Shown here: piece after piece, positions 8,812-24,300 of the stretch
Layout: each line of letters opens with the position of its first letter
Position numbering within the stretch: the stretch's first letter is position 1
IMG/VR virus record: IMGVR_UViG_3300044998_001366
Coordinates: 1-26,213 of that record
DNA length: 26,213 nucleotides
DNA from: a virus
Strand: one strand, 5' to 3'
The notes under the pieces: model-generated
What the model was told of the DNA's origin: nothing
The model's database searches: none
What the model saw: the letters and a program-made list of their open reading frames with translations, nothing else
Translations under genes and position numbers: made by a program

Positions 8812-11265
8812 CTAAAACCGCTCAATTCCTTGCGCGAGATCAATTGTGCCCGCAGCTGTTTTGAACTCGCCTGGCTCGACCTCAATCAGCGGGACCATCG
8901 CGCACCGGCACTGGTAAGAGAAAGGCGGTCGGCCAATGGTAGCAAGCTCCGCAGAACCCAGTTGCACCTGCTTGCCGTTCAGCTCGGCGTGCCCAGGGCG
9001 GCTTCGTTCGTCAGCGGGATTCGTGTACTCGTAGCCCCACAGGAAGTCTTTGAGGTCGGGATCAGATTCGATCATCCTCTGCTGCTCGGTATACTGCAAG
9101 CCAATCTCGGTGCGGAAAACCATCTCCCAATAAGAGAGCGCACCGCCCACAGAATCAGGCAGGTTCTGCACAAACGCGTCCACGCTCAACCCGTCTCGCG
9201 CGGCTCGCGCAAGAAGGTTTTGGACGTGTTCGACTAGACCCAAATCCGCGATCTGCGAAACGGCGAAAGCGGTCTGCCGAATGAAATTCTCGGCCGCCCG
9301 AGCGTCCCCGCCAAATTGCGAGGACAGCTGCTGAGCCGCGAGAAAAATGTCGTCGGTGGTCATCACCTTTCTCGAAATCATCCACCGCACCGCATCCGCA
9401 AAAGCCTCTCCCAGATCCGACACTCGGAAAAGGCCGGGGCGATCCACCAGCAACGCTTGCTTGATTTTCGCGGTATCCAGCGCGGCCGCCAACGTCGCCG
9501 TCGCCACAAGCCGCTCGCACAAAATGTCGGTGCGCAAGAACCGGGCATCAATCGCGTTAAAATCAAACCCGTCTTGTTTCACCCGTTCCGCAGTGCGCCT
9601 GAGCAGATCCCGAACGCTTGGCCTGGCGTCGTCCACTATCTCCTTTACGGCGCGCTCCTTGATCTCATCTGCCTTGGTCACGGAGTCCAGCGCCACCTGA
9701 CGCACCGAACGAACACGACGGGAGAACACTGCCCGCTGGATCCGGGGAGACGCCCAAGCCCAATTCGCCAGAGCGATCTCGGCTTTCGTAAACGGGCACT
9801 CCTCCGAAACCACGTTGTCCAGGTCGCCCATCGCCCCACGCATGCGCGCCACAAAACTCACGGTTCGCAAGGCCTGCTTGGCATCGCGAACTCCCCACTC
9901 ACTCTTCGGTTTTCGCAAGAGGGCGAGATTCCTCTCGATCGGGGCTCGGTTCAAACTCGCTCGCCTGGAACAAGCCGTTTCTGACCAGCGCTGTAAATCG
10001 TCCGCCGTCATGTTCACCGTGGCATGATATTGTTCCCAGGCTTTGTCGATATCCGCATCAGCAAACTCGCTCTGTTCCGCCGCCGAGGGCGGGCGCAATC
10101 CCAGCTTCTCCCGAGCCTCAGACTCCGAAATGGGCAAGCCGATCTTAAACGCTGTCTCGAGTGTGGCCCGGGTTTCCTGGGCGTCAGAGGGAATTTCGAA
10201 ATCAATCGTCAGCTGCGGAATCGGCGCGGTGTCCCCGAAGTTCACCTTCACCACCAGGTCGATCAGTGCTTGTACCGCCTTGCGGATCGGCGCGCTGTAG
10301 GGCGCCAACGTTCTCAGCATCACCGCTTCGTGAGTCTGGCTTGCCGCCCGGCTGCCGTTTTGCCCGGCCACTGTGGCCAGCTCCGAGCCAAGCAACGCGG
10401 TGCGGATGTAGCTGTCGATGCGGCTGATCGGATTATCAAAAATGTCGGTGGCTCCCGCTCCGATGTTGCGGGGATGAACCTCGATCTCCTCCCCGTTGGC
10501 GGTTACGATCACCGCGCCGTCAGGAAGCTCCTGGAGAGCCACGAGAAAGTCGTTCATGCTCTGGGATTTTTCGGTTAGCTCGTTCGGCACTTTGCCGTGG
10601 ACAATCGGCGTGCCGAACTTCGCCGCAGCTTTCACCTGCTCCGAGAGAAGCTTGCGCTTGGCCTCGTAAAGGTAGCGCAACCCCCACACCGGCGACTCGC
10701 CGAGAGGGTTCTCGTAAGCCCCGGGGAGGTTGGCGTGAAAGATTTGTCCGGGGGAAGGAACCCGGCGGGTCTGGTAGAAAAGAAACTCGCCGGACTCAGC
10801 ATCAAAGACAAACTGCCCCGGGTGAGCGTGAAGGATTCTGTGGGGCACCAGCTTGCCGCCTCGCTCCTCCCACAACGCTTCCAAAAACACCACACCGTGA
10901 CGGACCAGGGCCGAGATCATGGTATCAAAAATCGTCTCATGCTCCGCCATAACCGCGAGCACAAGATCGCGGATCTCCACCTCGAGAGCGGTCACCTCGA
11001 CAGTATCCGCGAACTTGTAAAAGCGATCGCGGGAAACAAATCCGGAACGCAACACCGAGATGCACGACTTGATCACAGCGTCACGATCAGTCATCTCGTC
11101 CAACAGATCCCACACCCGCTGACTCGAAACGTACTGAAACCCGTAGGCATTACTGACCGACTGTCGCGCCCAGACCGTTTGAATGTCCGCCAAGGGATTC
11201 TCGCCATAGCGACGGGGAACAAGCTCTTCTGCGCGAGCAGCGCGTGGGGTCGGGCGGTCATTCAT
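8812..11265 (-). CDS. Portal protein (DUF935) fused to Mu gpF head morphogenesis domain
   Basis: This 817-residue protein joins two genes that are separate in Mu. The N-terminal ~420 residues resemble the DUF935 portal family (Mu gp29): VSNAYGFQYVSSQRVWDLLD, AHPGQFVFDAESGEFLFYQT, and LGESPVWGLRYLYEAKRKLL. The C-terminal ~250 residues resemble Mu gpF: FRTEIGLQYTEQQRMIESDP, then ERSRPGHAELNGK, then PPFSYQCRCAMVPLIEV. The portal is the DNA gate at the capsid vertex, and gpF is a minor head protein. ATG 11265 overlaps the preceding gene by eight bases, and the gene ends in TAG (8814-8812). Such fused forms occur in some phages, so this is uncommon but not unique. Confidence 0.88.
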   Translation of the reverse strand: MNDRPTPRAARAEELVPRRYGENPLADIQTVWARQSVSNAYGFQYVSSQRVWDLLDEMTDRDAVIKSCISVLRSGFVSRDRFYKFADTVEVTALEVEIRDLVLAVMAEHETIFDTMISALVRHGVVFLEALWEERGGKLVPHRILHAHPGQFVFDAESGEFLFYQTRRVPSPGQIFHANLPGAYENPLGESPVWGLRYLYEAKRKLLSEQVKAAAKFGTPIVHGKVPNELTEKSQSMNDFLVALQELPDGAVIVTANGEEIEVHPRNIGAGATDIFDNPISRIDSYIRTALLGSELATVAGQNGSRAASQTHEAVMLRTLAPYSAPIRKAVQALIDLVVKVNFGDTAPIPQLTIDFEIPSDAQETRATLETAFKIGLPISESEAREKLGLRPPSAAEQSEFADADIDKAWEQYHATVNMTADDLQRWSETACSRRASLNRAPIERNLALLRKPKSEWGVRDAKQALRTVSFVARMRGAMGDLDNVVSEECPFTKAEIALANWAWASPRIQRAVFSRRVRSVRQVALDSVTKADEIKERAVKEIVDDARPSVRDLLRRTAERVKQDGFDFNAIDARFLRTDILCERLVATATLAAALDTAKIKQALLVDRPGLFRVSDLGEAFADAVRWMISRKVMTTDDIFLAAQQLSSQFGGDARAAENFIRQTAFAVSQIADLGLVEHVQNLLARAARDGLSVDAFVQNLPDSVGGALSYWEMVFRTEIGLQYTEQQRMIESDPDLKDFLWGYEYTNPADERSRPGHAELNGKQVQLGSAELATIGRPPFSYQCRCAMVPLIEVEPGEFKTAAGTIDLAQGIERF

Positions 11266-11590
11266 GGTCGAGGCAGCTTTCGATTTTGGTGATCACAGCG
11301 AAAAATTTCTGGCGAGCCAGGCTCCGCTTCTCACGTCGCCCTGCCGCCCGATAAGCCATTTTGCGAAACGCGCGGGTGTCAATCTGAGCTCCCATGACCC
11401 GACTAAACGCGGCGGCCGCGTCCTGGGACTTGAGCAGACCAGAGGACACAAGAAAGTCCAGAACCGCGACGACGGAATCTTGTTCTTTCGCCTCGAGCGA
11501 ATCGTAAACGGAAGCCGAGTTTTTAAGCAAACAAAGCACCGAGCGAGCAAGGGATTGCGAGCAGGCAGCGGCAGCGTCGTGGCGTGGCAT
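11258..11590 (-). CDS. Hypothetical protein between terminase and portal
   Basis: This 110-residue protein starts MPRHDAAAACSQSLARSVLC. ATG 11590 overlaps the terminase stop as TGATG, and its stop overlaps the portal gene. The sequence appears entirely helical and its last 40 residues are strongly basic (AYRAAGRREKRSLARQKFF). No family was recognised. The tight coupling to terminase and portal suggests a role in DNA packaging or portal assembly, by context only. A longer frame exists upstream but would lie inside terminase and lacks an obvious ribosome binding site. Confidence 0.65.
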   Translation of the reverse strand: MPRHDAAAACSQSLARSVLCLLKNSASVYDSLEAKEQDSVVAVLDFLVSSGLLKSQDAAAAFSRVMGAQIDTRAFRKMAYRAAGRREKRSLARQKFFAVITKIESCLDHE

Positions 11591-13296
11591 CAGATCAAAT
11601 CTCCCCCTATTTTTTTTACAGCAAGAGGTTTGAATTTGGACGCAACGCGACGCCGGTCCAGGGCCGAGTCCGCAAACCACAGCGCCATGAGATCGTCCGG
11701 CGTGGTACTGCGGGTCACCTGCCGAGTCAGGATCGACCACTCAGCCTCGGCGCGGCGCCAGAACTCGCCGACCTCATTTTTGAGTTTGGACATGCCGTCG
11801 GGCCAGAGATAAACCTTGTTTTGGAACTTCATGTCGAGCCCGGGCAGGCCCAGTTGCGGATCCCACTTATTAGCGCCGGTCACGGTGCCCGTGATGGTTC
11901 GCGCCCACTCGCAATCATGGAATCGCGCGAAGGTACGCAGAGCCTCTCGCAAAGTCGATTGCACGCCGTTGGATTCCACCGCCAATTCCCGCCAGCGAAG
12001 CCCCCGTCGCCAAGCGTCGTCGATGCGCCGAAAGGTTTCGTCGAGGCCACCCTGAATTGTCCAGAGCTCCAAAACAATTCGACATTTCAGCCCTGTCTCA
12101 GCAACCACACAAAAAGCCATGCCCTTGCGCTGCGCCCCCGAAATATCAAGCCCGGCAGTGATCGCGAAGCGAAATTGATCGGCGTCAGATAATGCAACAA
12201 GCCCACCAACATTTTCGACTTGAAGCAGGTCCGAGACAAGCCCCGGAGCTCGCTCGCGATCCTTAAACCCGGGCATCATGAGGTTAGTTTCATCGACGCC
12301 CTGGAGCCGGAACATCGCCTGGAAAGCCCCAGGCTCGGTGTCGCGAAGATCCTCTTTGGTGTATCCTGGGCGAACGGGAAGATCGAATTCCGCGTAGAAA
12401 TGCGGCGGGAAATCCTCGCCGGTGTCCGGGCACTCTTTGACCGCGAGCCCATATCGCTCGGGCTCGTCGAGAAGAGGGAAGTCGTCGGGAAGGTGGTAGC
12501 CTTTGAGAAACATGCGCTCGCAATCGGCGGTGACCCCTACCCAAACGCTGATAAACTTCGGCCACTCACGCAGCTGGTGCAGCAGGTCGTTTTTGCCGCG
12601 AAGGTTCTGAAGATACATGGCCACGCCGCCCAGGCGCAATCGGCCTTCGATGAACGTTTTTTTGAACGCCTCGGCGATCGCAACGCCCTCGCTGTTGTCG
12701 AAAGTCCGCTGGGTGATCACGTCGTCAGCCAGCAACAAATCGATGCGCGCCGATTCCATTTTCGGCGTGCTGGACATCGCCCTCATGGTGGGATCTTTTC
12801 GCTGCCCATCGGTTTTCAGAAACCACTCGGACTGTTTCCACCCCCGCCCGGTCATGGACTCCTCGGCGTCCGCTTGGTGGGTTGGGAAGAGCTTCTGATA
12901 GGCGGGACTGAGCACAATCGCCCGACACAAACTCACCACATTCGTGCTGTCGCTCACGCTGCCGCTGGTCACCGCGATGCGAATGTCACGATCCTGGGCC
13001 AGGGCGAACAGCGCGCCCATTCGCGCCAGGGTGGACTTTCCCAGGCCGGGCGGACTCGTGAAAGCAAAATGCCGCCGCCCACTGGTTTGGCGGGTGTTCC
13101 AGCAGTAGAGCCAGCTATCGAAGAAGATGCGCGTGAAGTTATCGATGGGGATCGACCGATTTTTTTCGTCCACCAGGATCGCCTGGAGAAATGCGTAGGG
13201 ATCAACGCGAGCGTTGCCCTCGGCGCGGGCAGAGCGCACGCCCGAGCGCATCGATTCCAACAGGTATTGCGCCGGGTCAAATCGAGCGAGATTCAC
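11590..13296 (-). CDS. terL: Large terminase subunit (packaging ATPase-nuclease)
   Basis: This ~568-residue protein pumps and cuts phage DNA during packaging. Walker A is SPPGLGKST (about residues 81-89), Walker B is RIDLLLADD (about 184-192). The RNase H-like nuclease is marked by ITAGLDISG (Asp about 384), LAVESNGVQ (Glu about 441) and TTPDDLMALWF (Asp about 534). This resembles Mu gp28-type terminases. The GTG at 13296 with GAGAAG upstream is preferred over a TTG at 13308, which has no Shine-Dalgarno. It overlaps the preceding gene and ends in TGATG with the following one. Confidence 0.92.
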   Translation of the reverse strand: MNLARFDPAQYLLESMRSGVRSARAEGNARVDPYAFLQAILVDEKNRSIPIDNFTRIFFDSWLYCWNTRQTSGRRHFAFTSPPGLGKSTLARMGALFALAQDRDIRIAVTSGSVSDSTNVVSLCRAIVLSPAYQKLFPTHQADAEESMTGRGWKQSEWFLKTDGQRKDPTMRAMSSTPKMESARIDLLLADDVITQRTFDNSEGVAIAEAFKKTFIEGRLRLGGVAMYLQNLRGKNDLLHQLREWPKFISVWVGVTADCERMFLKGYHLPDDFPLLDEPERYGLAVKECPDTGEDFPPHFYAEFDLPVRPGYTKEDLRDTEPGAFQAMFRLQGVDETNLMMPGFKDRERAPGLVSDLLQVENVGGLVALSDADQFRFAITAGLDISGAQRKGMAFCVVAETGLKCRIVLELWTIQGGLDETFRRIDDAWRRGLRWRELAVESNGVQSTLREALRTFARFHDCEWARTITGTVTGANKWDPQLGLPGLDMKFQNKVYLWPDGMSKLKNEVGEFWRRAEAEWSILTRQVTRSTTPDDLMALWFADSALDRRRVASKFKPLAVKKIGGDLI

Positions 13297-13825
13297 GGAT
13301 CTTCTCAAACTGAGCGATCACGCGAAGGTAGAGATGCTCGTGGTTGGGCAGAAGCACCTGGCCCAGGGCGAGGGTCAGTTGCGAAAGGGTCTCCTGAGCC
13401 TCCCGGCGGATGCGCGCTTCTTCAATCTGTACTTTGGTACCCGACAATTCCATCTGGAGCTGCACCGCTTTGATAGCGGTGTCCAGGGCGCGGCTGTTGG
13501 GCACCTCCTGTCTTTCTGTAAGAGTGACTTCGCCGTCGGGACCAACGCGCTTTTCCCGGGAGATTCCCGTCTCGACCTTCTTGTGAACCGAGAGGGCGGA
13601 CTTGAAAACGCGCTCGGTTCGCGCAAGCTGAAGAGATCGCTGGATCTCCAGGCCCGGCTGGTGAATCTTACCAACATAGATTTGGAACGCCTCGAGAAAC
13701 TTGCGGAACTTAGCCACGGAAATCTTACACGCGATGCGCGCTTCTTCCAAGGTGGCGCCGCCCGCCACGAGATCACCGAAAGCGTCCAGTTCCGCGCGCG
13801 AATAGCCGTTAAATATTTTTTTCAC
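13277..13825 (-). CDS. Likely small terminase subunit
   Basis: This 182-residue protein starts at GTG 13825, eight bases after a GAGG Shine-Dalgarno. A longer frame from a TTG at 13870 seems less likely. Residues about 14-45 have a helix-turn-helix look (LVAGGATLEEARIACKISVA). A long helical region follows, with a RIRREAQETLSQL helix, typical of DNA-binding plus oligomerising small terminases. It lies directly upstream of terL with an overlap, the normal place. No specific family motif was seen, and the protein upstream (13809-14144) is a rival candidate. Confidence 0.6.
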   Translation of the reverse strand: MKKIFNGYSRAELDAFGDLVAGGATLEEARIACKISVAKFRKFLEAFQIYVGKIHQPGLEIQRSLQLARTERVFKSALSVHKKVETGISREKRVGPDGEVTLTERQEVPNSRALDTAIKAVQLQMELSGTKVQIEEARIRREAQETLSQLTLALGQVLLPNHEHLYLRVIAQFEKIRESRSI

Positions 13826-14144
13826 GGTTCGGGCCTCGGCGCTGCATATATCCGCCGCGAAGAATCGCAAGATGGCGGGAAATCGTGTTAGGGGACACCT
13901 TGAAGTGTTTGGCGAGCCTGGTGATATCCCCGCGCTTGATTTCGATGTCCTTAATATAGGCGGCTAGGCGCATGCGGAACTCAAAAGATTGCTGGGAGCG
14001 TTGCGCGAGCCATTCTTTCTTGCGTCGAATAAACGCGGCCGAGCCCTTCCGCCCCGGCCACTCCTTAAGCCCGCCTGTCGGCGGTTTCGAGAGGCCGAGT
14101 TTAACGCGGGTGGCAAAGTCCATGCTGTACTTGGATTTCCTCAT
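13809..14144 (-). CDS. Helix-turn-helix DNA-binding protein
   Basis: This 111-residue basic protein begins MRKSKYSMDFATRVKLGL at ATG 14144. A longer frame starts from TTG 14216. A helix-turn-helix is visible near residues 70-92 (GDITRLAKHFKVSPNTISRH). It opens the leftward assembly operon and could be a late transcription regulator acting on the repeat array next to it, or an initial DNA-binding partner of terminase. Both are inference. The C-terminus overlaps the following gene by 17 bases. Confidence 0.65.
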   Translation of the reverse strand: MRKSKYSMDFATRVKLGLSKPPTGGLKEWPGRKGSAAFIRRKKEWLAQRSQQSFEFRMRLAAYIKDIEIKRGDITRLAKHFKVSPNTISRHLAILRGGYMQRRGPNREKNI

Positions 14145-14248
14145 GTCTCGCGGCGCTAAATCGCCTTTTTCGATTTTATTCAAAAAAATCGTACCTCGAT
14201 TTGCAGGCCTGCACAACTAGACAAGCAAGAAAAATTTGTGCACTGACT

Positions 14249-14323
14249 GGATGGTACTAAACATGACAAACCCCTCACAGCCTTATGGGATAAGGGTTTC
14301 ATTTGTCAAGTATAGTACCATCC
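14249..14323. repeat. Long imperfect inverted repeat with central hairpin
   Basis: GGATGGTACTA (14249-14259) pairs perfectly with TAGTACCATCC (14313-14323), and TGACAAA (14264-14270) with TTTGTCA (14302-14308). The four bases between the boxes do not pair. In the centre CCTTAT-GGG-ATAAGG (14281-14295) is a perfect six-base hairpin. Two composite boxes, ATGGTACTA-N4-TGACAAA, thus face each other across a hairpin. Confidence 0.85.
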
Positions 14324-14400
14324 ATGTAGGATAAATTTGGAAGGTACTAATACTAGCATTCTTCGGAAACCTATATCCCATAAGGCCGTGATAACTTTTT

Positions 14401-14420
14401 TTTGTCAGGTATAGTACCAT
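14401..14420 (-). repeat. Composite box ATGGTACTA-N4-TGACAAA, copy 3
   Basis: On the minus strand this reads ATGGTACTA, TACC, TGACAAA, matching the copies at 14251-14270 (+), 14302-14321 (-) and 14560-14579 (+). The flank CTATATCCCATAAGG (14371-14385) partly repeats, in inverted form, the hairpin core at 14281. Confidence 0.8.
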
Positions 14421-14473
14421 GCGTACCATAAATACTAACCTGAGAAACGAAACTTGGCGAAAAAGGGCCTGAA

Positions 14474-14505
14474 ATGGCCAATTAGGGCCCCCTAAAGATG
14501 GCCAT
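14474..14505. repeat. Nested palindrome ATGGCCA / TTAGGG-CC-CCCTAA / TGGCCAT
   Basis: ATGGCCA (14474-14480) pairs with TGGCCAT (14499-14505). Inside, TTAGGG (14482-14487) pairs with CCCTAA (14490-14495) across two bases. The outer arm is the same TGGCCAT motif that occurs in the 70-base repeats at 22763 and 23767. Confidence 0.8.
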
Positions 14506-14559
14506 GTCAAGTACCCCTAAAAAGCGTGTTCGCCACGGGATAAGGCATTTATCCTACGC

Positions 14560-14579
14560 ATGGTACTATGACTGACAAA
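14560..14579 (+). repeat. Composite box ATGGTACTA-N4-TGACAAA, copy 4
   Basis: The sequence is ATGGTACTA, TGAC, TGACAAA. It is preceded by ATTTATCCTACGC, which also precedes, on the minus strand, the box at 14302-14321 in nearly identical form. So the repeat unit is at least 30 bases long. A degenerate copy (AAGGTACTA, TGACAAA) lies at 14682-14702. Confidence 0.8.
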
Positions 14580-14705
14580 ATTTTTCTCTCGCGCCCATGT
14601 CCCACATAACTTTCCCGCGACCGTCAACCTTAGTAGGATGACCTTTTCGATGGTACTAACATCCTACTAAAATTGTCAATTAAGGTACTACTTCTTGACA
14701 AAATC

Positions 14706-14722
14706 TGTCCAGTTACTGGACA
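14706..14722. promoter_or_regulatory. 17-base perfect palindrome, likely operator
   Basis: TGTCCAG-TTA-CTGGACA has two perfect seven-base arms across three bases. This is the size and shape of a dimeric phage repressor operator. It directly follows a TTGACA at 14695-14700, so a bound protein could block RNA polymerase. No good -10 box was found at the right spacing. Confidence 0.65.
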
Positions 14723-14786
14723 AAAAAGGCCATTTACTTCACCAAAATAGATGTTTACGGAGGTCCCACCCTATTTCGTTTTTTGC

Positions 14787-14817
14787 GTTTGTCAAGTACC
14801 CCCTCAACTTGACAAAC
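14787..14817. promoter_or_regulatory. Perfect 11-base inverted repeat GTTTGTCAAGT / ACTTGACAAAC
   Basis: The arms 14787-14797 and 14807-14817 are exact reverse complements, separated by ACCCCCTCA. Each arm contains the TTGACAAA box shared by the rest of the array. A further TTGACAA follows at 14831-14837 and TGACAAA at 14888-14894. It is closer to the rightward replication genes than to the assembly genes. Confidence 0.8.
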
Positions 14818-14992
14818 AAATTGGCCATTTTTGACAACCGAATCTTCATGTCTTTCCAAAAATGGCGATAAAGCAGGAGGCGGGGGGTGACAAAACAATT
14901 ATGTCAAAATAGGACATCAAGACGCAAAACAGGGCTATTAAAAAGAGAAGTTTTTTCTGAATTTTTCTTCGCGCTTTTGAGTACGCTACCAC

Positions 14993-15979
14993 ATGGCTAT
15001 CACAATTTCACCAATTGATTTGCCGGTCATCAAGACGGCTTGTTCCCTGGGTCAGGTCTGTTTCAGGGACGGATACGTCCTGGGCGTCTGCAAGGATCTT
15101 CAATTTCGCGGCAAGTTATCGGTGCCTTTTGAGGGCGCTGTGGCTTTTGACGCGGAGCTTCTCGCAAAGGTAATCGAACCTGGCGAGATTTCGCTGGAGG
15201 GTAAGGTCGGCCCGTTTGATCTTTTCACCTTCCCGGCAGAGGATTTCCCCAAGATCGATTTTGATTTGGAGGCTCCCCCTTTGGTTGTTCCCGCGAAGGA
15301 GTTGCAGCGGGTGTTGTCTGCCGCCCTGGTTGGTGTGCCCAAAAAAGATCCGCGCCGGATTTTGTTCTGTGTGCGTTTGGAGATAACTTCTGACGGAGTT
15401 TTCGTGGGGGTTGGCACCGACGGGAAAAAACTCATTTGTGCCCGGGGAACTTGTCTCGAGGGACAGGAAGCCGAAATCAATCTTCCCGAAAAAACAGCCC
15501 GGGCGGTTTTGGAAAGCCTGGGCGAGGTTGACCAGGTGACGATCCGCGCGAGCGAGACGGCGGCGGTGATTGAGGTCGGCCGAATTGAGATCAGAAGCCA
15601 GCTACAAAGTAACTACCCGGATTGGCGAAAGGTGATTCCGGGGAAGGCGGGGGAGGGGATTGTCCTGGATAAGGCTCCTCTTTTAGCCGCCCTAAAGCGA
15701 GCGAATCTGATTGATGCAACGGCGCGGCTGCGATTTCAAAATGGCGGCTGCGCGGTGTCTGCTCGCTGCGCGGATAAGGGGACTTTTTGGGAATCGTTCG
15801 CCGTGGGGAACGGCGAACTGAGCTTTTCGGTTGATGCAAAAATTCTGAAGGAGGTTGTTTGCGCGTTTTCTGAACCCCGCTGTGAAATGCGGGGGGGCAA
15901 GCCGATCATTTTTGATTTCGGCGATCTGGGTTTTGGGTTGGTGATGCCAATAGTGGAGAAGCAATCATGCGAGGATTAG
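14993..15979 (+). CDS. dnaN: DNA polymerase sliding clamp (beta subunit-like)
   Basis: This 328-residue protein is a phage copy of the bacterial beta clamp, a ring that holds polymerase on DNA. Diagnostic features are ILFCVRLEITSDGVFVGVGT followed by DGKKLICA (TDGKKL about 142-147), the later NYPDWRKVIP (207-216) matching the clamp domain II to III region, and an end near FGLVMPIVEK resembling VMPMRL of DnaN. It is slightly shorter than bacterial clamps (about 366 residues). There is no clear Shine-Dalgarno before the ATG, so it may be leaderless or depend on upstream sequence. It ends TAG directly followed by in-frame TGA, and overlaps the next small gene by 13 bases. No polymerase is seen in the window. 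Confidence 0.88.
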   Translation: MAITISPIDLPVIKTACSLGQVCFRDGYVLGVCKDLQFRGKLSVPFEGAVAFDAELLAKVIEPGEISLEGKVGPFDLFTFPAEDFPKIDFDLEAPPLVVPAKELQRVLSAALVGVPKKDPRRILFCVRLEITSDGVFVGVGTDGKKLICARGTCLEGQEAEINLPEKTARAVLESLGEVDQVTIRASETAAVIEVGRIEIRSQLQSNYPDWRKVIPGKAGEGIVLDKAPLLAALKRANLIDATARLRFQNGGCAVSARCADKGTFWESFAVGNGELSFSVDAKILKEVVCAFSEPRCEMRGGKPIIFDFGDLGFGLVMPIVEKQSCED

Positions 15980-16140
15980 TGAAGGAGCTGATGCTGCGCT
16001 CGGGCTATTCCCGGCCGACCGTGGCGGCGTACCTGAAGGATAAGAGTAAGGTGTGCGTGCAGGTGAGACTGCGGCTTTCGAAAATTGTTCGGGAGCTCAA
16101 AACAGAACTGGAGAGAGATAGTGCAATATCTGACGAATAG
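15967..16140 (+). CDS. Small helix-turn-helix protein
   Basis: This 57-residue frame runs MRGLVKELMLRSGYSRPTVA to a TAG. The region LMLRSGYSRPTVAAYLKDKS has the pattern of a helix-turn-helix (recognition helix starting at SRPTVAAYL). The remainder is basic and helical. It starts inside the end of the clamp gene and stops inside the start of the nuclease gene, so all three are translationally linked. It could regulate the nearby repeat array. It is short and based on local sequence only. Confidence 0.6.
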   Translation: MRGLVKELMLRSGYSRPTVAAYLKDKSKVCVQVRLRLSKIVRELKTELERDSAISDE

Positions 16141-17185
16141 TCGAATCAATCAGTACAAGTTTTGCCCGCGAAGCCACGAGCTGGCTTATGAGCTCGGGAT
16201 TCGCAGGGCTGACCCGCCGGAGTATTTTCGCCTGGGCACAGCGTGGCACAAGTGCATGGAACTGTGGGCGAACGGGGATCCCGTGGAACAGATCGAGGCG
16301 GGCATTCGGAAGAATTACGAAAGGCCCCCTGACTATGTGCTCGAGAGTCAGGAGCTGCAGGCCAAGTGGTATTACGAATGCGTGACGGTACTCACACTCT
16401 TCTCGGAATATCGGCGGCATTACGGCGAGGACGGCGTGGAGGTGCTCGCGGCGGAAAAGGCGTTTGCGTTCGAGATCGCGAATCCCGAGACGGGGAAGAC
16501 CACCCAGGTGTTTCGTGCTGCGGGTAAGATCGACCAGGTGGTGCGGTTGGCTGACGGGCGAGTTGCGTTGCGGGAGTTTAAGACGACAAGCGCTGATATC
16601 TCGCTCGAATCGGATTACTGGCGGCGGTTGCGAATCGACAGCCAGCTGAGTCACTATTGGCTGGCCGCTCTGAGTTTGGGTTTCGGAGTCACGACGGTTA
16701 TTTACGATGTCGTGCGCAAGCCTGGGATTCGTCCAGGTCCGGTGGCGGTGGAAGACGCTGACGGGCCGATTGTGCTGAGTGCGAGTGGTGAGCGGGTGAT
16801 GAGGAAGGACGGGAAAGGCCCGAAGAAAACAGCTTCTGCTGGTGAGGTTTTGCAAACCAGGCCGATGACCACAGATGAGTGGAGAAAGAAGCTGAGCGAG
16901 AGTATCCAATCAGATCCTTCCCGTTATTTTCAGCGGGTCGAAATTCCGCGAACTGAGCAGGATTTGCGGGAGTACGAGACGGACCTGTGGGAGACCCAGA
17001 AGATGATCCGCTATTCCCAGGTCCAGGGGTTTTGGCCACGGAATACCGGAAGCTGTTTATCGGTGGGGCGGGGTCGGTGTCCGTATTTTGATATTTGCAC
17101 CCAGGGGCTTGATCCGCTTCAGGCTCCGGGGTTTGCAAGGGTAGTAAACATCCATCCTGAATTAGGAGAAGAGGGTTATGAGTAA
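16121..17185 (+). CDS. PD-(D/E)XK nuclease, RecB/Cas4-like, with Fe-S-type cysteines
   Basis: This 354-residue nuclease has the RecB-family motifs: His43 (TAWHKCME), Asp138 (GKIDQV), Glu152 and Lys154 (LREFKTT), and QxxxY at 175-179 (SQLSHY). Cysteines at 15 (KFCPRS) and 312, 320, 326 (SCLSVGRGRCPYFDIC) match the pattern of the 4Fe-4S cluster in Cas4 and AddB, although the spacing of the C-terminal group is atypical. The product would be a 5' or 3' exonuclease for end processing or recombination. The GTG at 16121 with GGAG seven bases upstream is preferred over a TTG at 16085. It is unlikely to be a CRISPR Cas4, as no other CRISPR genes are present. Confidence 0.85.
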   Translation: MQYLTNSRINQYKFCPRSHELAYELGIRRADPPEYFRLGTAWHKCMELWANGDPVEQIEAGIRKNYERPPDYVLESQELQAKWYYECVTVLTLFSEYRRHYGEDGVEVLAAEKAFAFEIANPETGKTTQVFRAAGKIDQVVRLADGRVALREFKTTSADISLESDYWRRLRIDSQLSHYWLAALSLGFGVTTVIYDVVRKPGIRPGPVAVEDADGPIVLSASGERVMRKDGKGPKKTASAGEVLQTRPMTTDEWRKKLSESIQSDPSRYFQRVEIPRTEQDLREYETDLWETQKMIRYSQVQGFWPRNTGSCLSVGRGRCPYFDICTQGLDPLQAPGFARVVNIHPELGEEGYE

Positions 17186-17972
17186 GTCGAAGTTGCAGTT
17201 TCGAAAGGTGACGGCGGCGCCTGCCCAGCGTATTGGGGTTTATGGCGTGCCGGGAGTTGGTAAGACAAGCTTGGCGATGCTTGCGCCGGGTCCGGTGGCG
17301 GTGGTCGATTTTGACCGAAGTGTCGGGGTGCTTCATAAATCCGGCGCGGTGCCGGAGAGTGTGCAGTTGGTAGATGGGATTGCCACGTATGGAGATCTTT
17401 TGGAGATCCTGCGAGATCCGGCGTGGGAGCAGTCGGGTGTCAAGAGCCTGGTGATCGACACGGTGACCGCGATGCACAAGCTCGTGGAGGAGCACGTGAT
17501 CCGAACAATTCCTTCTGATCGCGGCGCGGCGACTTCTATTGAGTCCTATGGCTACGGGAAGGGCTACAGCTTCGTGTCCGAGGAGTACGCCAAGCTTCTC
17601 GCGGATCTGGACCGGTATCATGTGCAAAAGGGTCGGAACGTGGTTCTGGTTATGCACGAGATCAAGGCCAAGCGGGCAGGCACGGAAAACATGGAACTTT
17701 TGGAATACACGATTGCGCTACCTGAGAGCGGTACCAAATCGGTTCGGCAGCAGGTGATAGGTTGGCTTGATCACCTGCTGTTCCTGAATATCGAGAAGGT
17801 GGTGACCGACAAGGGCCTGGTCAAGAGCACGGGGCTTCGTGTGATCTATTGCCAGGAAGGTCCGAACTTTCGGGCTAAGAGTCGGAGCACGCAGGACCCG
17901 ATCATTTATAACGCCGGGGACGGCTCGGCGTGGAATACGATTTTGTGCTTAGGAGCGAAAAGCAATGGCTGA
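17178..17972 (+). CDS. RecA-fold ATPase, Sak4-like recombinase
   Basis: This 264-residue protein has Walker A GVPGVGKTS (23-31) and Walker B SLVIDT (90-95), with the compact RecA-like core of phage Sak4/AAA_24 proteins. These promote single-strand annealing together with an SSB. Following elements are a MHEIKAK segment at about 160 and a basic C-terminal region. It overlaps the nuclease gene by eight bases and the SSB-like gene by eight bases, placing nuclease, annealing ATPase and SSB in one unit, which is the normal context for Sak4. Confidence 0.82.
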   Translation: MSKSKLQFRKVTAAPAQRIGVYGVPGVGKTSLAMLAPGPVAVVDFDRSVGVLHKSGAVPESVQLVDGIATYGDLLEILRDPAWEQSGVKSLVIDTVTAMHKLVEEHVIRTIPSDRGAATSIESYGYGKGYSFVSEEYAKLLADLDRYHVQKGRNVVLVMHEIKAKRAGTENMELLEYTIALPESGTKSVRQQVIGWLDHLLFLNIEKVVTDKGLVKSTGLRVIYCQEGPNFRAKSRSTQDPIIYNAGDGSAWNTILCLGAKSNG

Positions 17973-18492
17973 GTTAACAACACCTGGAGTATATCAGGTC
18001 GAGATCCAAGATATCAAGCTTCAGGACAGTGAGAGAAGCGACGCGATCATGGTTGGTTTGGAAGGGAAGGTTGTAAACATGTGGCAGTCCGGGGAGTGGT
18101 TAAGCTGCTCGGAATGGCCGGACACATTTGTTCGCGGGACCGTGGTGTTGTTTAAGGGTGACGGGACGGTGAACGAGTCGGGCGTGAACCAGCTCAAGAA
18201 CGCTTTTGGGTGGAATCCCGCCCAGGGCATTCTGGGGCTTGAGAGAGATTTTATCGGCGTGTTGATTAACGCGACCTGTAAAACCGATTCTTATATCGAC
18301 CGGACCGGCCGGACCGTGAGCACGGTGAAGATCACCTGGATTGACTCGTGCGACGCCAGGCCATCTGGTGGTTTGCGTGGCATGGACGAGACTCGAAAAA
18401 AGGCGCTGGCCCAGTCCCTTGATGCACGGTTGCGTGGGTTGGGCTCGCCTGCTGTGCGCAAGGTGAAACCGGCGGACGAAATTCCGTTTTAG
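17965..18492 (+). CDS. SSB-like protein with acidic C-terminal tip
   Basis: This 175-residue protein ends KVKPADEIPF, very close to the DDDIPF tip of bacterial SSB, the docking peptide for many replication partners. The first 130 residues have an OB-fold-like beta pattern (GVYQVEIQDIKLQDSERSDA; VKITWIDSCD), seen in DUF669-type phage SSBs. The linker is basic (TRKKALAQSLDARLR). Position directly after the Sak4-like gene supports the role. Assignment rests on the tip, context and general fold, not on a strong motif for the core. Confidence 0.7.
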   Translation: MAELTTPGVYQVEIQDIKLQDSERSDAIMVGLEGKVVNMWQSGEWLSCSEWPDTFVRGTVVLFKGDGTVNESGVNQLKNAFGWNPAQGILGLERDFIGVLINATCKTDSYIDRTGRTVSTVKITWIDSCDARPSGGLRGMDETRKKALAQSLDARLRGLGSPAVRKVKPADEIPF

Positions 18493-18493
18493 G

Positions 18494-19810
18494 ATGCACC
18501 TGCGAGACTACCAAGAGCAGGGAATTGAAGCCATCCTGGCGGCGGCACAAAAAGGAAGGAGGTTGTTGTATGTGCTGCCGACCGGGGGTGGCAAAACGGT
18601 TCTGTTTTGCGAGCTGGCTCGGCGGCTGAACAAGAAAGCGCTGGTGATGGTTCACCGCGACTTTTTGTGTGGGCAGGTTCGCGCGGCGTTGGCTCAGGCG
18701 GGTGCGAACTGTGACGTGAAAATGATCACGGCGGCAGGTCGAGTGAGCGAGCATTATGATCTGCTGATCATTGACGAGGCGCATCACGCTGTGAGCCGAA
18801 CTTGGAGTGATGCGATTTCGAACCTGGAGAAGATCAATCCCGATTTGATCACGGTGGGTGTGACGGCTACGCCCGAGCGTTTGGACGGGAGAGGGTTGGG
18901 CGATATTTTTTCCAAGATGGTTCAGGGGCCGCAAGTGGCGGAGTTGATTGAGAGAGGTTATTTGGCAACCCCGGTAACGTTTGCTCCTCCCGCTAAAATT
19001 TCGACGGAGGGGCTGAGGGTGATGGGAGGCGATTACAATCGAGAGGAGTTGGCGACTCGGGCGGCGACGATCACGGGAGATGTGATTGAGCATTACCTCA
19101 AGCTGGCCGGGGGCAAGCGTGCTGTTGGTTTTACGCCGACGGTGGATTGCGCGGAGAGTTATTGCGCGGCTTTTAACCGGGCGGGGATTGCTGCTGACAT
19201 CATTCATGGCGGGCACAACATGGTGCAGAGAGAGAGTTTGATTCGGCGATTCCGGGAAGGAGAGATTCGGGTTTTGTTTTCCTGCGAAGTGATTTCTGAA
19301 GGGTTTGATTTGCCTGCGATTGAGGCGGCGATTTTGCTGAGGCCGACGAAAAGCCTCGCCTGTTTTTTACAGCAGGCGGGGCGGGCCTTACGCCCCGCGC
19401 CGGGGAAGGATAAGGCGATCGTGATTGATCACACTCAAAACACGGAGAAGCACGGCTTGGTTTCCGATGAGCGTAAATGGGGTTTGGAAGCCAAGAAAAG
19501 GGTGAAGCGCACGGTGGAGAAGCTGTGCTGGACCTGTCGGGTTTGTTGCGCTCAAAACCCTCTTCATGTGGATGTGTGCGATAATTGTGGGGCGGCGCGA
19601 ACCACGGAACCGAGGGAAGCGCCCAAGCATGTGGAGGGGGATTTGGTCGAGGTGAAAAGTCGGCGAAGGAAGATGAGCCGGGAAGAGATCCGGAAACTGT
19701 TTCGGGAAGAAAAGGACAACCGGAAGATCGTGCAGACTCTTTTGGAGGTGGGTTACAAGATGGGTTTTATCAGGATTCAGTTTGGATTTCGCGGGAGGTC
19801 GCTGTCGTGA
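18494..19810 (+). CDS. DEAH superfamily 2 helicase with zinc-ribbon-like region
   Basis: This 438-residue helicase has PTGGGKT (29-35), DEAH at 94-97 (LLIIDEAHHA), a TATPERLDG motif III and QQAGRALRP motif VI. A cysteine cluster (CWTCRVCCAQ then CDNCGA, about 344-368) could bind zinc. The C-terminal tail is basic (RRKMSREEIRKLFREEKD). It resembles phage helicases of the RecG/UvsW-like or DEAD-type class, used in replication restart or recombination. ATG 18494 follows the SSB-like stop by one base. Its TGA overlaps the next GTG (GTGA). Confidence 0.9.
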   Translation: MHLRDYQEQGIEAILAAAQKGRRLLYVLPTGGGKTVLFCELARRLNKKALVMVHRDFLCGQVRAALAQAGANCDVKMITAAGRVSEHYDLLIIDEAHHAVSRTWSDAISNLEKINPDLITVGVTATPERLDGRGLGDIFSKMVQGPQVAELIERGYLATPVTFAPPAKISTEGLRVMGGDYNREELATRAATITGDVIEHYLKLAGGKRAVGFTPTVDCAESYCAAFNRAGIAADIIHGGHNMVQRESLIRRFREGEIRVLFSCEVISEGFDLPAIEAAILLRPTKSLACFLQQAGRALRPAPGKDKAIVIDHTQNTEKHGLVSDERKWGLEAKKRVKRTVEKLCWTCRVCCAQNPLHVDVCDNCGAARTTEPREAPKHVEGDLVEVKSRRRKMSREEIRKLFREEKDNRKIVQTLLEVGYKMGFIRIQFGFRGRSLS

Positions 19811-20193
19811 GCTATCGAGGAGCCATTCATAAAGAAAGAGTGTTGGCGGCGATTGGGTTTCGCAAGGGTGTGATGATTTGGAACGCTCCGTCGGGAACCT
19901 TTCGAGCGCCGAGTGGTGCGCTGGTAAAAGTGGGAATGCTGGGCCAGGCAGACCTGCTGGGAATTGTGGAGAGGGAACCGTGGCCGGTTCCTTTCGCGGT
20001 GGAGTGCAAGGCGGGTTCCGGGCGTTTGTCGAAGGAACAGAGAGTTTGGCGAGACAATTGGGTTCGGCGCGGCGGTGTTTATTTGGAGGCGCGGGAACCG
20101 GAGGGGGTGGAAATAACGAAGCGCAATTGGTTGTCGGTCTATTCTCCGATTGCGGATGAGCTGATGCGACAAATAGAAGAGAGAGGGATATGA
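19807..20193 (+). CDS. VRR-NUC domain nuclease
   Basis: This 128-residue protein starts at GTG 19807 in a GTGA overlap with the helicase stop. Motifs of the VRR-NUC PD-(D/E)XK family are visible: GQADLLGIV with the Asp, then FAVECKAG with the E-x-K, then GRLSKEQRVWRDNW with the conserved Gln, followed by a GGVYLEAR strand. Phage proteins of this kind act as flap or junction-resolving nucleases during replication and packaging. A longer frame in another phase overlaps the helicase but is not coupled to it. Confidence 0.85.
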   Translation: MSYRGAIHKERVLAAIGFRKGVMIWNAPSGTFRAPSGALVKVGMLGQADLLGIVEREPWPVPFAVECKAGSGRLSKEQRVWRDNWVRRGGVYLEAREPEGVEITKRNWLSVYSPIADELMRQIEERGI

Positions 20194-20366
20194 TTTTAGC
20201 TAGCGAGTTGGTTTGTGGGATGCGCGTTTTGTACCGTGGCGCCGTGTTCCGTGTGGCTCAGATTTGGAGACTGGGTAAGAAGGTCCGGGTGCGGCTGATT
20301 CACCCGATGATCAAGGATATCTATTTGGATTTGGCGCCGAGCGCGAAAGTCGAGGTGGTGAAGTGA
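20190..20366 (+). CDS. Small conserved-looking protein, possible SH3-like
   Basis: This 58-residue frame begins MILASELVCGMRVLYRGAVF. ATG 20190 overlaps the VRR-NUC stop (ATGA) and its TGA overlaps the primase GTG (GTGA). The strand-like sequence (RVLYRGAVFRVAQIWRLGKK) is reminiscent of small KOW/SH3-type barrels, but this is weak. No family was recognised. Coupling on both sides suggests it is truly translated. Confidence 0.6.
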   Translation: MILASELVCGMRVLYRGAVFRVAQIWRLGKKVRVRLIHPMIKDIYLDLAPSAKVEVVK

Positions 20367-22762
20367 GTTTGGAGAGCGAGTATGACGCGGAGTACATCGC
20401 GCGGGCGCTAGGTAAGGCGGTTCGTGCTGGAGAGTGGTGGAGTTGTCTGGCACCGTGTCATGAGGATAAAAACAATTCGTTTTCGATTCGGGATTGTGGA
20501 AACGGGAAGATCGACACCAAGTGCCATGCTGGTTGTGATTCCCGGCGGCAGATTGCGGCGTTGAAAGTGATGGGTTTGCTCAAGTCGCCCAGGCGAAATG
20601 AGCAGGGGGCGGACAAGGACGCGCTGGCGAAGACTTACGGGTTGTGCTGGCGGGATTTTGAGCAGGCTGGATGCGTGCTGAAGTCGTGGCCGATTAATGG
20701 CGAGTTCATACCTTGTGTGGTGTACCCGCTGCATAATGGTGGCGCCAAGATCAAGTCGGTGGCGCGTTATGGGAAAGGCGGGGAGATCTTGTCCTGGCCA
20801 CAGGGCAAACGGAGTTCCGTGCACAAGAGCGGGGGCGGTTCGGGTTGGTTCGATCCGGCGCCGAGCCTCGAATCAGACCTTCTTGTTTTGACGGCGGGGG
20901 AGGAGAAAGCGATCGCCGCGGTCAAGGCGGGGTTTCGCGCGGTGAGCTGGTCGAGTGGGGAGGGGAAACCTTCTTCTGGTGCTGTTGAGTCGCTGAGTTA
21001 TTTGCCGAGGATCCCGGTGGTGGTAGCGATGGACAACGATGGTGCCGGGCGGAAGGGTGGGAAAGCGTGGTTGGAGAAGCTGAAGCTGGCGGGGTTTGAC
21101 GCCCGCAAATTGGTTTGGCCGGAGGGTGTTGCGGACAAGTTTGATTTGGCTGACTGGTTGCGCGAGAAGGGCGCGGAATCGCTGAGGGATCTGTTATTGT
21201 CCGAAAGGCCGGAACAAGAAGAGGATGAGGAGAACGAGCTTCTTGTCGGTTTTGACGAACGCGCGATGGTTGAGAGCTGCTTGAAGATCCTGGCAAAATC
21301 GAATTTGAATTTGTACCAGCGGGGAAGGGTTTTGGTGGAGGTTCCGGAGAATGAGATCGAGACTGAGGGATCTCGGCCGATCCGGATTTTGTCGCCCACA
21401 AAAATTCGTGTGCTTCTCTCGAGCCTGGTGAAGTTTGTGTCGAGCGACGGGAAGATGCGGCAGATTCCGCGAGTGTTGCCGACGGCGATTTCGGAATGGG
21501 GAGAATACGAAGGGTTTCGAGAATTGGTTTCGGTTTTGGAGTATCCAGCTCTGATTCGCGGGAACAAGATTGTGCGGGAGCCTGGTTATTATCCTGATAG
21601 CGGAACACTGCTGGTGCGCAGAAACAGATCTTATCCCGAGATGCACCCGAACCCGACGGCTCACGAGGCGACGATCGCCGCCCAGGAATTGCTGGATGAT
21701 TTTCGTGATTTTCCTTTTGAGACGGACATTGATCGTGCGGCTTTTTTAGCTTATTGCCTGACGGTGGTTTGTCGGGACGCGGTGACGGGGCAGGTGCCGG
21801 GGTTCATTTTCACGGCGAACGATCAGGGCGCGGGCAAAACCAATTTGGCGATCGCTCCGTGGTTGTTTTGTATGGGGAAAGCGCCGGGCGTTTTTGGTGG
21901 GTTGCCGAGGTCGGCGGAGGAGTTGGACAAGCGGATTTTGGCGGCGATTCACGGGGGACAGCGAGGATTGATTTTTGATAACGTGACCCACAGGATTGGT
22001 GGTGAGGCTCTCGCGGTGCTGCTGACGAGCGCCGCTTATCAAGGCAGGATTTTGGGGAGCACACAAACAGTGACAGTCAAAAATAATTGGGTGGTGGCGA
22101 TCACGGCGAACAACGCGGCGGTGGACACGGACCAGGCGACAAGGTCTGTTTTTATTCGGCTGCTGGCCCCGCCAGGACACAGGGAGAGAGATCAGTCGAG
22201 TTATAAGACGCCGGATTTTGCGGCGAGTTTGATTCGCAATTCGGCTCACGTGATTCGGTGCCTGACGATTCTGCAGGCTTATATTTTGGCGGGGACGCCA
22301 AATCAAAACCAGAAGAGCTTGCGAGACTTTCACGGGTGGACGAGATTAGTTTCGGGTGCGGTTGTTTGGTCGGGGTTGCCTGATCCTTTGGGGCGACAGA
22401 AAGAGTTGGCGCGCGAAAGTGATGAGGAAAGCGACAACCTGTTGCAATTCCTCTCGCTGATTTACGATGGGCAATTTGGTGTGTCGCTGAGGGTGCCGTT
22501 CTCGACAGCTGACTTGGTGCAGTGGGCTCAGGGTCAGGAATCCTTTCGGGCTGTTTTGTCGAGCTTGCGAATCGCGAGAGGGTTGAGTATCGATAACGGC
22601 ATGTTGGGTCGGGTTCTCCGGAGGTTGAATGGGAAACCGGTGGATGGGTTTTGCCTGGAAAAGCGGGAGGGCCGGAACCCGAACGGGGGCGCGTTGTGGG
22701 AAGTCAAGCGGATTTTTTCTGGGGAAGAAATTCATTCTGAAAAGGATGAAGTTCCCTTTTAG
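20363..22762 (+). CDS. Primase-helicase (CHC2 zinc finger, TOPRIM, AAA-type domain)
   Basis: This 799-residue protein probably makes RNA primers and unwinds DNA. Zinc-finger ligands lie in SCLAPCHED (Cys28/32, His33) and TKCHAGC (Cys54, Cys58). The TOPRIM part has TAGEEKA (Glu180) and VVAMDNDGAG (Asp224, Asp226). The helicase-like part has ANDQGAGKTN (GAGKT at 489-493) followed by a RGLIFDNV strand and an AITANNAAVDTDQATRSVF segment typical of virus-type AAA ATPases. The final residues HSEKDEVPF mimic an SSB tip. The GTG at 20363 overlaps the previous stop. The gene ends TAG directly before a 70-base intergenic repeat. Confidence 0.88.
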   Translation: MSLESEYDAEYIARALGKAVRAGEWWSCLAPCHEDKNNSFSIRDCGNGKIDTKCHAGCDSRRQIAALKVMGLLKSPRRNEQGADKDALAKTYGLCWRDFEQAGCVLKSWPINGEFIPCVVYPLHNGGAKIKSVARYGKGGEILSWPQGKRSSVHKSGGGSGWFDPAPSLESDLLVLTAGEEKAIAAVKAGFRAVSWSSGEGKPSSGAVESLSYLPRIPVVVAMDNDGAGRKGGKAWLEKLKLAGFDARKLVWPEGVADKFDLADWLREKGAESLRDLLLSERPEQEEDEENELLVGFDERAMVESCLKILAKSNLNLYQRGRVLVEVPENEIETEGSRPIRILSPTKIRVLLSSLVKFVSSDGKMRQIPRVLPTAISEWGEYEGFRELVSVLEYPALIRGNKIVREPGYYPDSGTLLVRRNRSYPEMHPNPTAHEATIAAQELLDDFRDFPFETDIDRAAFLAYCLTVVCRDAVTGQVPGFIFTANDQGAGKTNLAIAPWLFCMGKAPGVFGGLPRSAEELDKRILAAIHGGQRGLIFDNVTHRIGGEALAVLLTSAAYQGRILGSTQTVTVKNNWVVAITANNAAVDTDQATRSVFIRLLAPPGHRERDQSSYKTPDFAASLIRNSAHVIRCLTILQAYILAGTPNQNQKSLRDFHGWTRLVSGAVVWSGLPDPLGRQKELARESDEESDNLLQFLSLIYDGQFGVSLRVPFSTADLVQWAQGQESFRAVLSSLRIARGLSIDNGMLGRVLRRLNGKPVDGFCLEKREGRNPNGGALWEVKRIFSGEEIHSEKDEVPF

Positions 22763-22832
22763 CCCACGGGGGTTTCAGAAAAAAATAGCCATTTGCGATT
22801 TTTTTTCGAATAATGGCCATGGCCACGAATAG
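22763..22832. repeat. 70-base intergenic repeat, copy 1
   Basis: It starts right after the primase stop and contains GGGTTTCAG, an A-run, TAGCCATTTGCGA, a T-run, AATGGCCATGGCC and CACGAATAG. Copy 2 lies about 1,000 bases downstream. TGGCCAT half-sites face each other at a spacing of 27 to 28 bases. This is a candidate promoter or binding site for the accessory genes. Confidence 0.8.
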
Positions 22833-22877
22833 ACTATTTCACGGGTTGAGAAATCCGAATTTGGTAGGAGAGTAGAG

Positions 22878-23195
22878 ATGAGTTACTTTAAGACCACGAG
22901 CCTGGATGAGGCGGCTGCTGATTTCGCCGCTTACCTGGCCGCCGTTGAGAAGTTGGTAGCGATCGGGGAGAACGGCGAAGTCCGTCCCCTGGAGGTTTGC
23001 GAGAGCGAGATCGTCCAGACCCAGGACACGGTAGCTGACTTTCAGTCTCGCAATCACAAGCGCACTGGTTATGTAACCTCCCCGGCTGGGGCTAGGATCG
23101 CCTGGTTCCACGATTTCCAGGCCCGCAAGGGCATGCCCCGGGTGCGCCTCTGGGTGGCCGATTACGGCACCTTTCGCCTGGTGTATTTTTCGTAA
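22878..23195 (+). CDS. Hypothetical accessory protein
   Basis: This 105-residue protein begins MSYFKTTSLDEAAADFAAYL, with a helical acidic first half and a beta-rich, basic second half (YVTSPAGARIAWFHDFQARK, then VRLWVADYGTFRLVYFS). AGGAG lies seven bases before the ATG in a leader (AGGAGAGTAGAGATGAG) very similar to that of the next gene. Codon use is rich in GCC and CTG compared with the replication genes, so it may have arrived separately. No family was recognised. Confidence 0.7.
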   Translation: MSYFKTTSLDEAAADFAAYLAAVEKLVAIGENGEVRPLEVCESEIVQTQDTVADFQSRNHKRTGYVTSPAGARIAWFHDFQARKGMPRVRLWVADYGTFRLVYFS

Positions 23196-23206: not shown

Positions 23207-23230
23207 GCGGGGTGGGTTCGCCCGCCCCGC
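23207..23230 (+). other. GC-rich hairpin with TTCG loop
   Basis: GCGGGGTGGG (23207-23216) pairs with CCCGCCCCGC (23221-23230), with one G-T pair, across a TTCG loop, an extra-stable tetraloop. AAATTTTC follows, a poor T-run. It may block 3' exonucleases, weaken read-through, or act as a partial terminator between the two genes. Confidence 0.7.
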
Positions 23231-23253
23231 AAATTTTCACAAGGAGAATAGAG

Positions 23254-23544
23254 ATGAGAGAAAAAAGAATGGTGGCCGATATTATGGATGCCCCGGCCTG
23301 CGTCACTGACGAGGATTTTGACGCCGCCCTCGAAGCGGCGGGGGAAGCCGCCGAAGTGTACAAGCAGGCCATCTTAGCCCTGGTGGCTATCCAGTTCGAA
23401 GACGATGCTATTCCCGAAATGATCGAGCGTTTGTATGAATTGGCTGGTCAATTGGCTTACGAGGCTGCTTACGCCGAATTAATAGAGCGCGGTTATACTG
23501 CTGGGTCTCTGCGGAATGTCAATGTCACGGTTGAGGCTATTTAA
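23254..23544 (+). CDS. Small acidic paralogue A
   Basis: This 96-residue helical, acidic protein begins MREKRMVADIMDAPACVTDE. It carries the family signature AIPEM-x-E-x-L-x-ELA (DDAIPEMIERLYELAG) and a C-terminal ELIERGYTAGSLRNVNVTVE. A close paralogue is at 24301 and more distant ones at 23564 and 24997. AAGGAG lies seven bases before the ATG. A longer frame starting at 23212 would begin inside the hairpin and is rejected. The acidic composition could suggest a DNA-mimic antirestriction role, but that is speculation. Confidence 0.75.
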   Translation: MREKRMVADIMDAPACVTDEDFDAALEAAGEAAEVYKQAILALVAIQFEDDAIPEMIERLYELAGQLAYEAAYAELIERGYTAGSLRNVNVTVEAI

Positions 23545-23563
23545 CCTAACAGGAGAGAAAAAG

Positions 23564-23803
23564 ATGATTGTCACGATCCGCCGGGTCCCCCGCGAAGTCA
23601 CCGATGAACAGCTGGAAGCCGTGGAGCACAAGGCGGCTAAAGCGGCCGCCTTTTTCGACAGGGAAGACTTAATCCTCTTGGCAGAAAACGCCGCTTACGA
23701 GGCCGCCTGCCTGGAACTTGAGGATCTTGGTTTTAGCTTTCGAGACATGGTTGTTGAAGTCTATATCCCACAAGGGTTTCAGGAAAAAAGTGGCCATTTG
23801 TGA
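23564..23803 (+). CDS. Shortened paralogue B
   Basis: This 79-residue protein begins MIVTIRRVPREVTDEQLEAV. It has the family start (I-x-x-x-P-x-x-VTDE) and end (AAYEAACLELEDLGFSFRDM, then VEVYIP) but lacks about 25 central residues found in A and C. Its last residues (PQGFQEKSGHL) are translated from copy 2 of the 70-base repeat, so the original C-terminus is probably lost or altered. AGGAG is seen upstream of ATG 23564. Confidence 0.65.
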   Translation: MIVTIRRVPREVTDEQLEAVEHKAAKAAAFFDREDLILLAENAAYEAACLELEDLGFSFRDMVVEVYIPQGFQEKSGHL

Positions 23804-23838
23804 TTTTTTTCTTGAATTATGGCCATAGCCACAAGTAG
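23767..23838. repeat. 70-base intergenic repeat, copy 2
   Basis: Aligned with 22763-22832, it has the same order of GGGTTTCAG, A-run, TGGCCATTTG, T-run, ATGGCCATAGCC and CACAAGTAG, with roughly one in five positions changed. Its beginning is translated as the end of the upstream gene. It precedes the HNH gene just as copy 1 precedes the gene at 22878. Its opening CTATATCCCA also resembles 14371-14380. Confidence 0.8.
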
Positions 23839-23875
23839 GGTTTTTTCAGAAGTAAGAGAGAAAGAGAGAACACAA

Positions 23876-24274
23876 ATGAGCCTCAAGACCCGCAAAGGCA
23901 ACAACAAGGGTTGCACCGTGAAGCCCCTCAAGCGGTTGTCCATCTACCTCCGGGACGGCCTGGCCTGCGTCTATTGCGGAGCCAGCACCGAGACCGGCGC
24001 CCAGTTGACCCTGGACCACGTCAAGCCCGCCTGCCAGGGCGGCACGAACGAGGCCACCAACCTGGTGACCGCTTGCCGCAAGTGTAACTGCTCGCGCCAG
24101 GACCGCTCTGTTGCCAGCTTTTGCGAGGCCGTTGCGGAATATGTGAAGGATGGGCGCACCGGCAAGCAGATCGCCGCTCATGTCCACAAGACCCGCAAGC
24201 GTGTCGTGAAGGTCGAAGAGGCTCGTGACCTGATTGCCCGCCGCCTGTTTGTCAACGGAGAAATTGTGAAGTAG
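23876..24274 (+). CDS. HNH endonuclease
   Basis: This 132-residue protein has a clear HNH core: CVYCGA, then TLDHVKPACQGGTNEATNLV and TACRKCNCSRQD. The two CxxC pairs bind structural zinc, and Asp-His with the later Asn form the catalytic site. The sequence after residue 85 is basic and helical (TGKQIAAHVHKTRKRVVKVE), perhaps for DNA binding. It lies among accessory genes rather than beside terminase, so it is more likely a free-standing homing or defence-type nuclease than a packaging HNH. ATG 23876 is chosen because the longer frame starts inside the repeat. Codon use is rich in GCC and AAG/AAC. Confidence 0.82.
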   Translation: MSLKTRKGNNKGCTVKPLKRLSIYLRDGLACVYCGASTETGAQLTLDHVKPACQGGTNEATNLVTACRKCNCSRQDRSVASFCEAVAEYVKDGRTGKQIAAHVHKTRKRVVKVEEARDLIARRLFVNGEIVK

Positions 24275-24300
24275 GCAATACAATATAAGGAGAATGTGCA

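Follow-up and report, generated by a model that had tools for sequence, protein, structure and literature searches.

The 776-base gap between the two divergent gene blocks of an uncultivated phage is a real, non-random and well-defined cis-acting region. It carries a two-part box whose motif is unrecorded, whereas this kind of region is already known in general. Judging from the sequence pattern, the gap very probably has a control function and is bound by a protein of the phage. Our tentative choice for its function, with somewhat less than an even chance of being correct, is that it governs early and late phage transcription through an array of several operator sites. The control regions of uncultivated phages are gene-free and for that reason seldom recognised. 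In this gap the sites are sharply defined and a candidate binding protein is encoded nearby, which makes it testable with two small proteins and one 776-base fragment. If it were an origin or a packaging site, it would open a way into an orphan lineage of phages without a near relative in the collections searched.

The DNA is the IMG/VR virus record IMGVR_UViG_3300044998_001366, positions 1 to 26,213, and this whole stretch of 26,213 bases is called the window below. The non-coding gap (14217-14992) is AT-rich, with 41% GC vs 56% for the window, and is the only divergent junction of the window; its start moves to 14145 if the helix-turn-helix (HTH) gene begins at its first ATG. The leftward operon opens with this gene (13809-14144, minus strand), which encodes a small protein with a C-terminal, ArsR/HTH_11-like helix-turn-helix. 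The predicted model of this protein has a pLDDT of 71 and gave no useful match in structure comparison. It is followed by a probable terminase small subunit (TerS; 13277-13870, minus strand), the terminase large subunit (TerL; 11590-13308, minus strand; phrog_38, 4e-21), a Mu-type portal, and capsid and tail genes. The small subunit call relies on an N-terminal helical, HTH-like part, long helices and a place before TerL, and its fold evidence is weak (predicted model pLDDT 52). The rightward operon opens with a DNA polymerase sliding clamp (14993-15979, plus strand; phrog_947, 1.7e-28), followed by a 57-aa protein that weakly matches a LacI-type HTH (15967-16140, plus strand) and a PD-(D/E)XK nuclease. 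Then come the replication and recombination genes (17178-22762, plus strand) for Sak4-like AAA_24, SSB-like, helicase, VRR-NUC-like and toprim primase proteins, where the SSB-like and VRR-NUC-like labels stand on position and analogy with phage S-2L, without a family match. The gap thereby lies between packaging and structural genes on one side and replication genes on the other, matching a divergent early/late block layout.

Several other properties of the right arm were recorded. Third-position GC skew over 15001-23000 is strongly positive across the replication operon and falls to about zero past the primase. A free-standing HNH protein is encoded at 23819-24274, and among curated entries it matches the HNH part of IscB and Cas9d best. 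Several small proteins within 23212-25347 (at 23212, 23516, 24301 and 24997) resemble one another in composition and are probably paralogues, and repeated DGPNGEPA motifs occur in the proteins at 24649, 25434 and 25832 (24649-26212).

The preliminary description had reported four clear copies of ATGGTACTA-N4-TGACAAA in a divergent gap beside replication genes, and both their positions and strands and their setting were borne out. All four lie inside the gap and have 16/16 core bases: box 1 at 14251-14270 (plus strand, spacer AACA), box 2 at 14302-14321 (minus, TACT), box 3 at 14401-14420 (minus, TACC) and box 4 at 14560-14579 (plus, TGAC). The spacings from box to box are 51, 99 and 159 bases, with orientations in the order + - - +. 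With up to three mismatches allowed, four or more box matches were seen in 0 of 100 whole-window shuffles. The best two-part word of 7+7 bases reached at most two copies in 1000 dinucleotide shuffles of the gap vs the four observed, and likewise at most two in the other 776-base tiles of the window. The component words are concentrated in the same way, with GGTACTA found 7 times in the gap and 0 times in the rest of the window, TGACAAA 8 and 2 times, and ATCCTAC 4 and 0 times. The core is identical at 16 positions in 4/4 boxes, the embedded spacer has a mean pairwise identity of 0.42 and the 20-base flanks 0.29, spacer and flanks thus being near background; as the core was chosen for its identity, weight can be given only to its contrast with spacer and flanks.

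Less exact copies are also present, and here the earlier account needs some correction. Two degenerate boxes had been proposed with the same fixed spacing. The one at 14682-14702 (plus strand) is indeed box-like but reads AAGGTACTA-CTTCT-TGACAAA, with a spacer of five bases, not four. The other, at 14650-14658 (plus strand), has ATGGTACTA but lacks TGACAAA in the same orientation; an inverted TTGTCAA follows instead, so it is better described as a half-box. It is surrounded by an inverted repeat (CAACCTTAGTAGGATG / CATCCTACTAAAATTG, 14625-14675). Shared flanks had been claimed as well, but ATTTATCCTAC is found upstream of boxes 2 and 4 only (14326-14336, minus strand, and 14547-14557, plus strand), while box 3 has ATTTATGGTAC. 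A second half-box, AAGGTACTA, lies at 14341-14349 (plus strand). A contracted form, GGTAC-TTGACA, occurs twice, within identical 13-bp repeats on the minus strand at 14505-14517 and 14790-14802 (GGGGTAC-TTGACA; TGTCAAGTACCCC on the plus strand). Additionally, the right part of the gap has a perfect 17-bp palindrome at 14706-14722 (TGTCCAGT-T-ACTGGACA, that is TGTCCAGTTACTGGACA) and a perfect dyad at 14787-14817 (GTTTGTCAAGT-N9-ACTTGACAAAC), both of which are candidates for separate dimer-binding sites.

The largest feature of the gap, absent from the preliminary description, is an imperfect palindrome of about 170 bp at 14248-14420. It is built in the order box 1, P, box 2, then half-box, P', box 3, so that its outer arms are formed by boxes 1 and 3 and its inner arms by box 2 and the half-box facing it at 14341. 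P (14275-14300, plus strand) is a 26-base arm, TCACAGCCTTATGGGATAAGGGTTTC, containing CCTTAT-GGG-ATAAGG, and P' (14366-14391, minus strand) is its inverted copy at 88%. In the left half of the gap, the boxes present on the two strands are mostly the arms of this palindrome. Its inverted alignment scores 48; 200 shuffles reached 32 at most, and the other tiles of the window 31.5. A single unrelated tile out of the 1932 taken from the retrieved loci outscored it, the remaining tiles scoring 48 being copies of the window itself. The palindrome folds with z = -9.2 as single-stranded DNA and with z = -8.4 as minus-strand RNA, and dyads further to the right give z = -4.0 and -2.6.

Since box 4, outside the palindrome, keeps 16/16 core bases while the spacer varies, hairpin pairing alone is insufficient to account for the conservation of the core. 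What is conserved thus appears to be the box as a unit, which has the look expected of a bipartite protein-binding site, its two halves being constant and set at a constant distance while the bases between them are free to vary. Other identities were tried and rejected. Coding repeats are ruled out by an in-frame stop in box 4 and by non-synonymous spacer changes. Promoters of the T7-like phage type do not fit, given that the + - - + order is unsuited to two divergent operons and the rest of the window has no copy. Reading TTGACA as the -35 element of a host promoter fails in that most copies have no -10 element at 16-18 bases. No tRNA was found. The preliminary description had recognised no described operator or iteron family in the boxes, and we likewise found no match to any described motif.

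Near relatives were not found in IMG/VR, GTDB genomes, a phage collection or plasmids by the searches made, in which the proteins are orphans. Searching with the clamp, TerL, portal, primase, MCP alignment, Sak4 and helicase led to distant homologues only, without the gap; the single-protein contig scans need exact matches of eight residues, and moderate relatives can be missed by them. The DNA of the gap has no match in phages or plasmids. The exact box has 23 matches in IMG/VR and its shorter form at least 120, and among the matches listed there is no box array elsewhere, the multi-copy clusters being coding repeats of collagen-like or RCC1-like proteins. In an unrelated 37-kb IMG/VR contig (L162) a perfect 19-bp dyad, TACTAACATTGACACTAAC, was found at 9360-9426 in a divergent gap. 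It lies 185 bases upstream of an operon of TerS-like, HTH and terminase-like genes and is the sole convergent-pair match of this sort. There is no GGTACTA nearby and no other box, and we regard this dyad as a coincidence or a weak parallel at most.

The operator array was ranked first because both operons must start where the boxes lie and because one of the two operons opens with an HTH gene; as the sole divergent gap, this region must hold the promoters of both. Under this model one DNA-binding protein of the phage, or a protein pair, would recognise the composite box as an asymmetric two-part site, contacting ATGGTACTA and TGACAAA and leaving the four bases between them unread. On the side of the leftward (terminase/late) operon, copies lie head-to-head in the 170-bp palindrome; towards the rightward (replication) operon they lie singly. 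Bound copies would act together, probably via looping or cooperative binding, and this joint binding would set which of the divergent operons is transcribed. The pattern of the boxes supports site-specific binding, and they may function as a switch. The HTH protein at 13809-14144, as the nearest candidate, is the putative ligand, and the 57-aa HTH-like protein at 15967-16140 is a second candidate. A phage precedent exists in the L5-type repressor, which binds an asymmetric site with two separate domains (PMC9283540). There are points against the operator model. The + - - + order of the boxes does not mirror the two operons, and comparison of the predicted HTH protein with known structures gave no noteworthy match. 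A search for sigma-70 promoters next to the boxes gave nothing convincing (6 weak matches vs 2.1 expected).

The preliminary description had left the choice at an origin, a multi-site switch or both. The anatomy of the gap, as the sole divergent junction with repeated sites and a long dyad, fits all of these and singles out none. An origin of replication is somewhat less probable than the operator array in our estimate. The boxes would then be initiator sites and the dyads an unwinding or priming structure, with primase, helicase and clamp provided by the adjacent operon; such an origin may also carry promoters. The lactococcal c2-type phages (Ceduovirus) share the layout and hold a functional origin in their divergent early/late gap (PMC7150918), and the gap studied here is long, AT-rich, rich in dyads and adjoins the clamp, Sak4, SSB, helicase and primase genes. 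The cumulative GC-skew minimum, which had been suggested as a check, does fall at the gap. However, this minimum coincides with the switch of transcription direction and is confounded by it, and on the left arm, next to the gap, third-position skew is about zero. There is no enrichment of DnaA-type boxes: the gap has one TTWTNCACA match with one mismatch, and the window total is below the shuffle mean. The irregular spacings and mixed orientation of the boxes are unlike tandem regular iterons, and no initiator protein was identified.

A further explanation, which was not among the options offered earlier though the gap abuts terminase genes, is that the terminase small subunit binds the palindrome and boxes as a recognition site for packaging (cosB or pac). 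The array begins beside the HTH protein, the TerS-like protein and TerL, and comparable arrangements are known from the cosB of lambda, with three R sites of which the middle one is inverted (PMC4669245), and from the cos of Ceduovirus, with four putative 19-bp terminase sites together with direct, inverted and palindromic repeats (PMC7150918). The dyad of the unrelated contig, likewise upstream of a terminase-like operon, could be counted on the same side, but it lacks GGTACTA and may be a chance hairpin match. No cohesive end or cut site was seen in the phage contig of the present study, which is fragmentary and without end repeats, and the sites span about 450 bases and reach the replication side. 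We hold a packaging site to be improbable. It is more improbable still that in this orphan lineage a bipartite, spacer-tolerant box in a long palindrome combines origin, early/late switch and packaging site under a protein of an undescribed family. Least probable of all is that the palindrome serves within a leader transcript as structured RNA or as a terminator, with the boxes as by-products of duplication, for which the minus-strand RNA fold and the resemblance of the palindrome arms to an inverted duplication can be cited, but there is no Rfam match, terminator-like sites are no more frequent than chance and box 4 retains its core outside the fold.

The gap can finally be set beside the systems that resemble it. 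The replication iterons of satellite phage P4 are short sites on both strands that are read by a phage replication protein. The boxes share with them short sites on both strands, but here 5.4 kb separate the primase from the gap, and this primase contains no known initiator domain. The gap lacks the features of an iteron-type origin, there being no tandem regular spacing and no DnaA-box enrichment. The stoperators of L5-type (cluster A) mycobacteriophages are similar in having an asymmetric two-part site in many copies, bound by one protein with two DNA-binding domains, but they are 13 bp long, spread genome-wide and aligned with transcription, whereas the boxes are confined to one gap and lie on both strands (PMC9283540). 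Identity with these stoperators was rejected on distribution (the confinement of GGTACTA to the gap), on the order of the half-sites and on the use of both strands. The lambda cosB and Ceduovirus cos R sites are comparable as protein-binding sites on both strands near terminase genes, with dyads (PMC4669245, PMC7150918). The positions of the boxes fit a lambda-type cosB, in which several sites, one inverted, lie next to the terminase genes, with TerS as the putative binder; they differ in that no cos nick site or ends can be seen here and in extending over about 450 bases to the replication side. In Ceduovirus c2 the early/late intergenic region holds a functional origin, and promoters PE1/PE2 and a PE1 transcript have been described for it but no bipartite-box array (PMC7150918); origin function is shown there, whereas here it is a proposal. 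What the two have in common is a non-coding gap, free of long ORFs, that separates divergent blocks of early and late genes and forms the hub of the genome map (PMC7150918).
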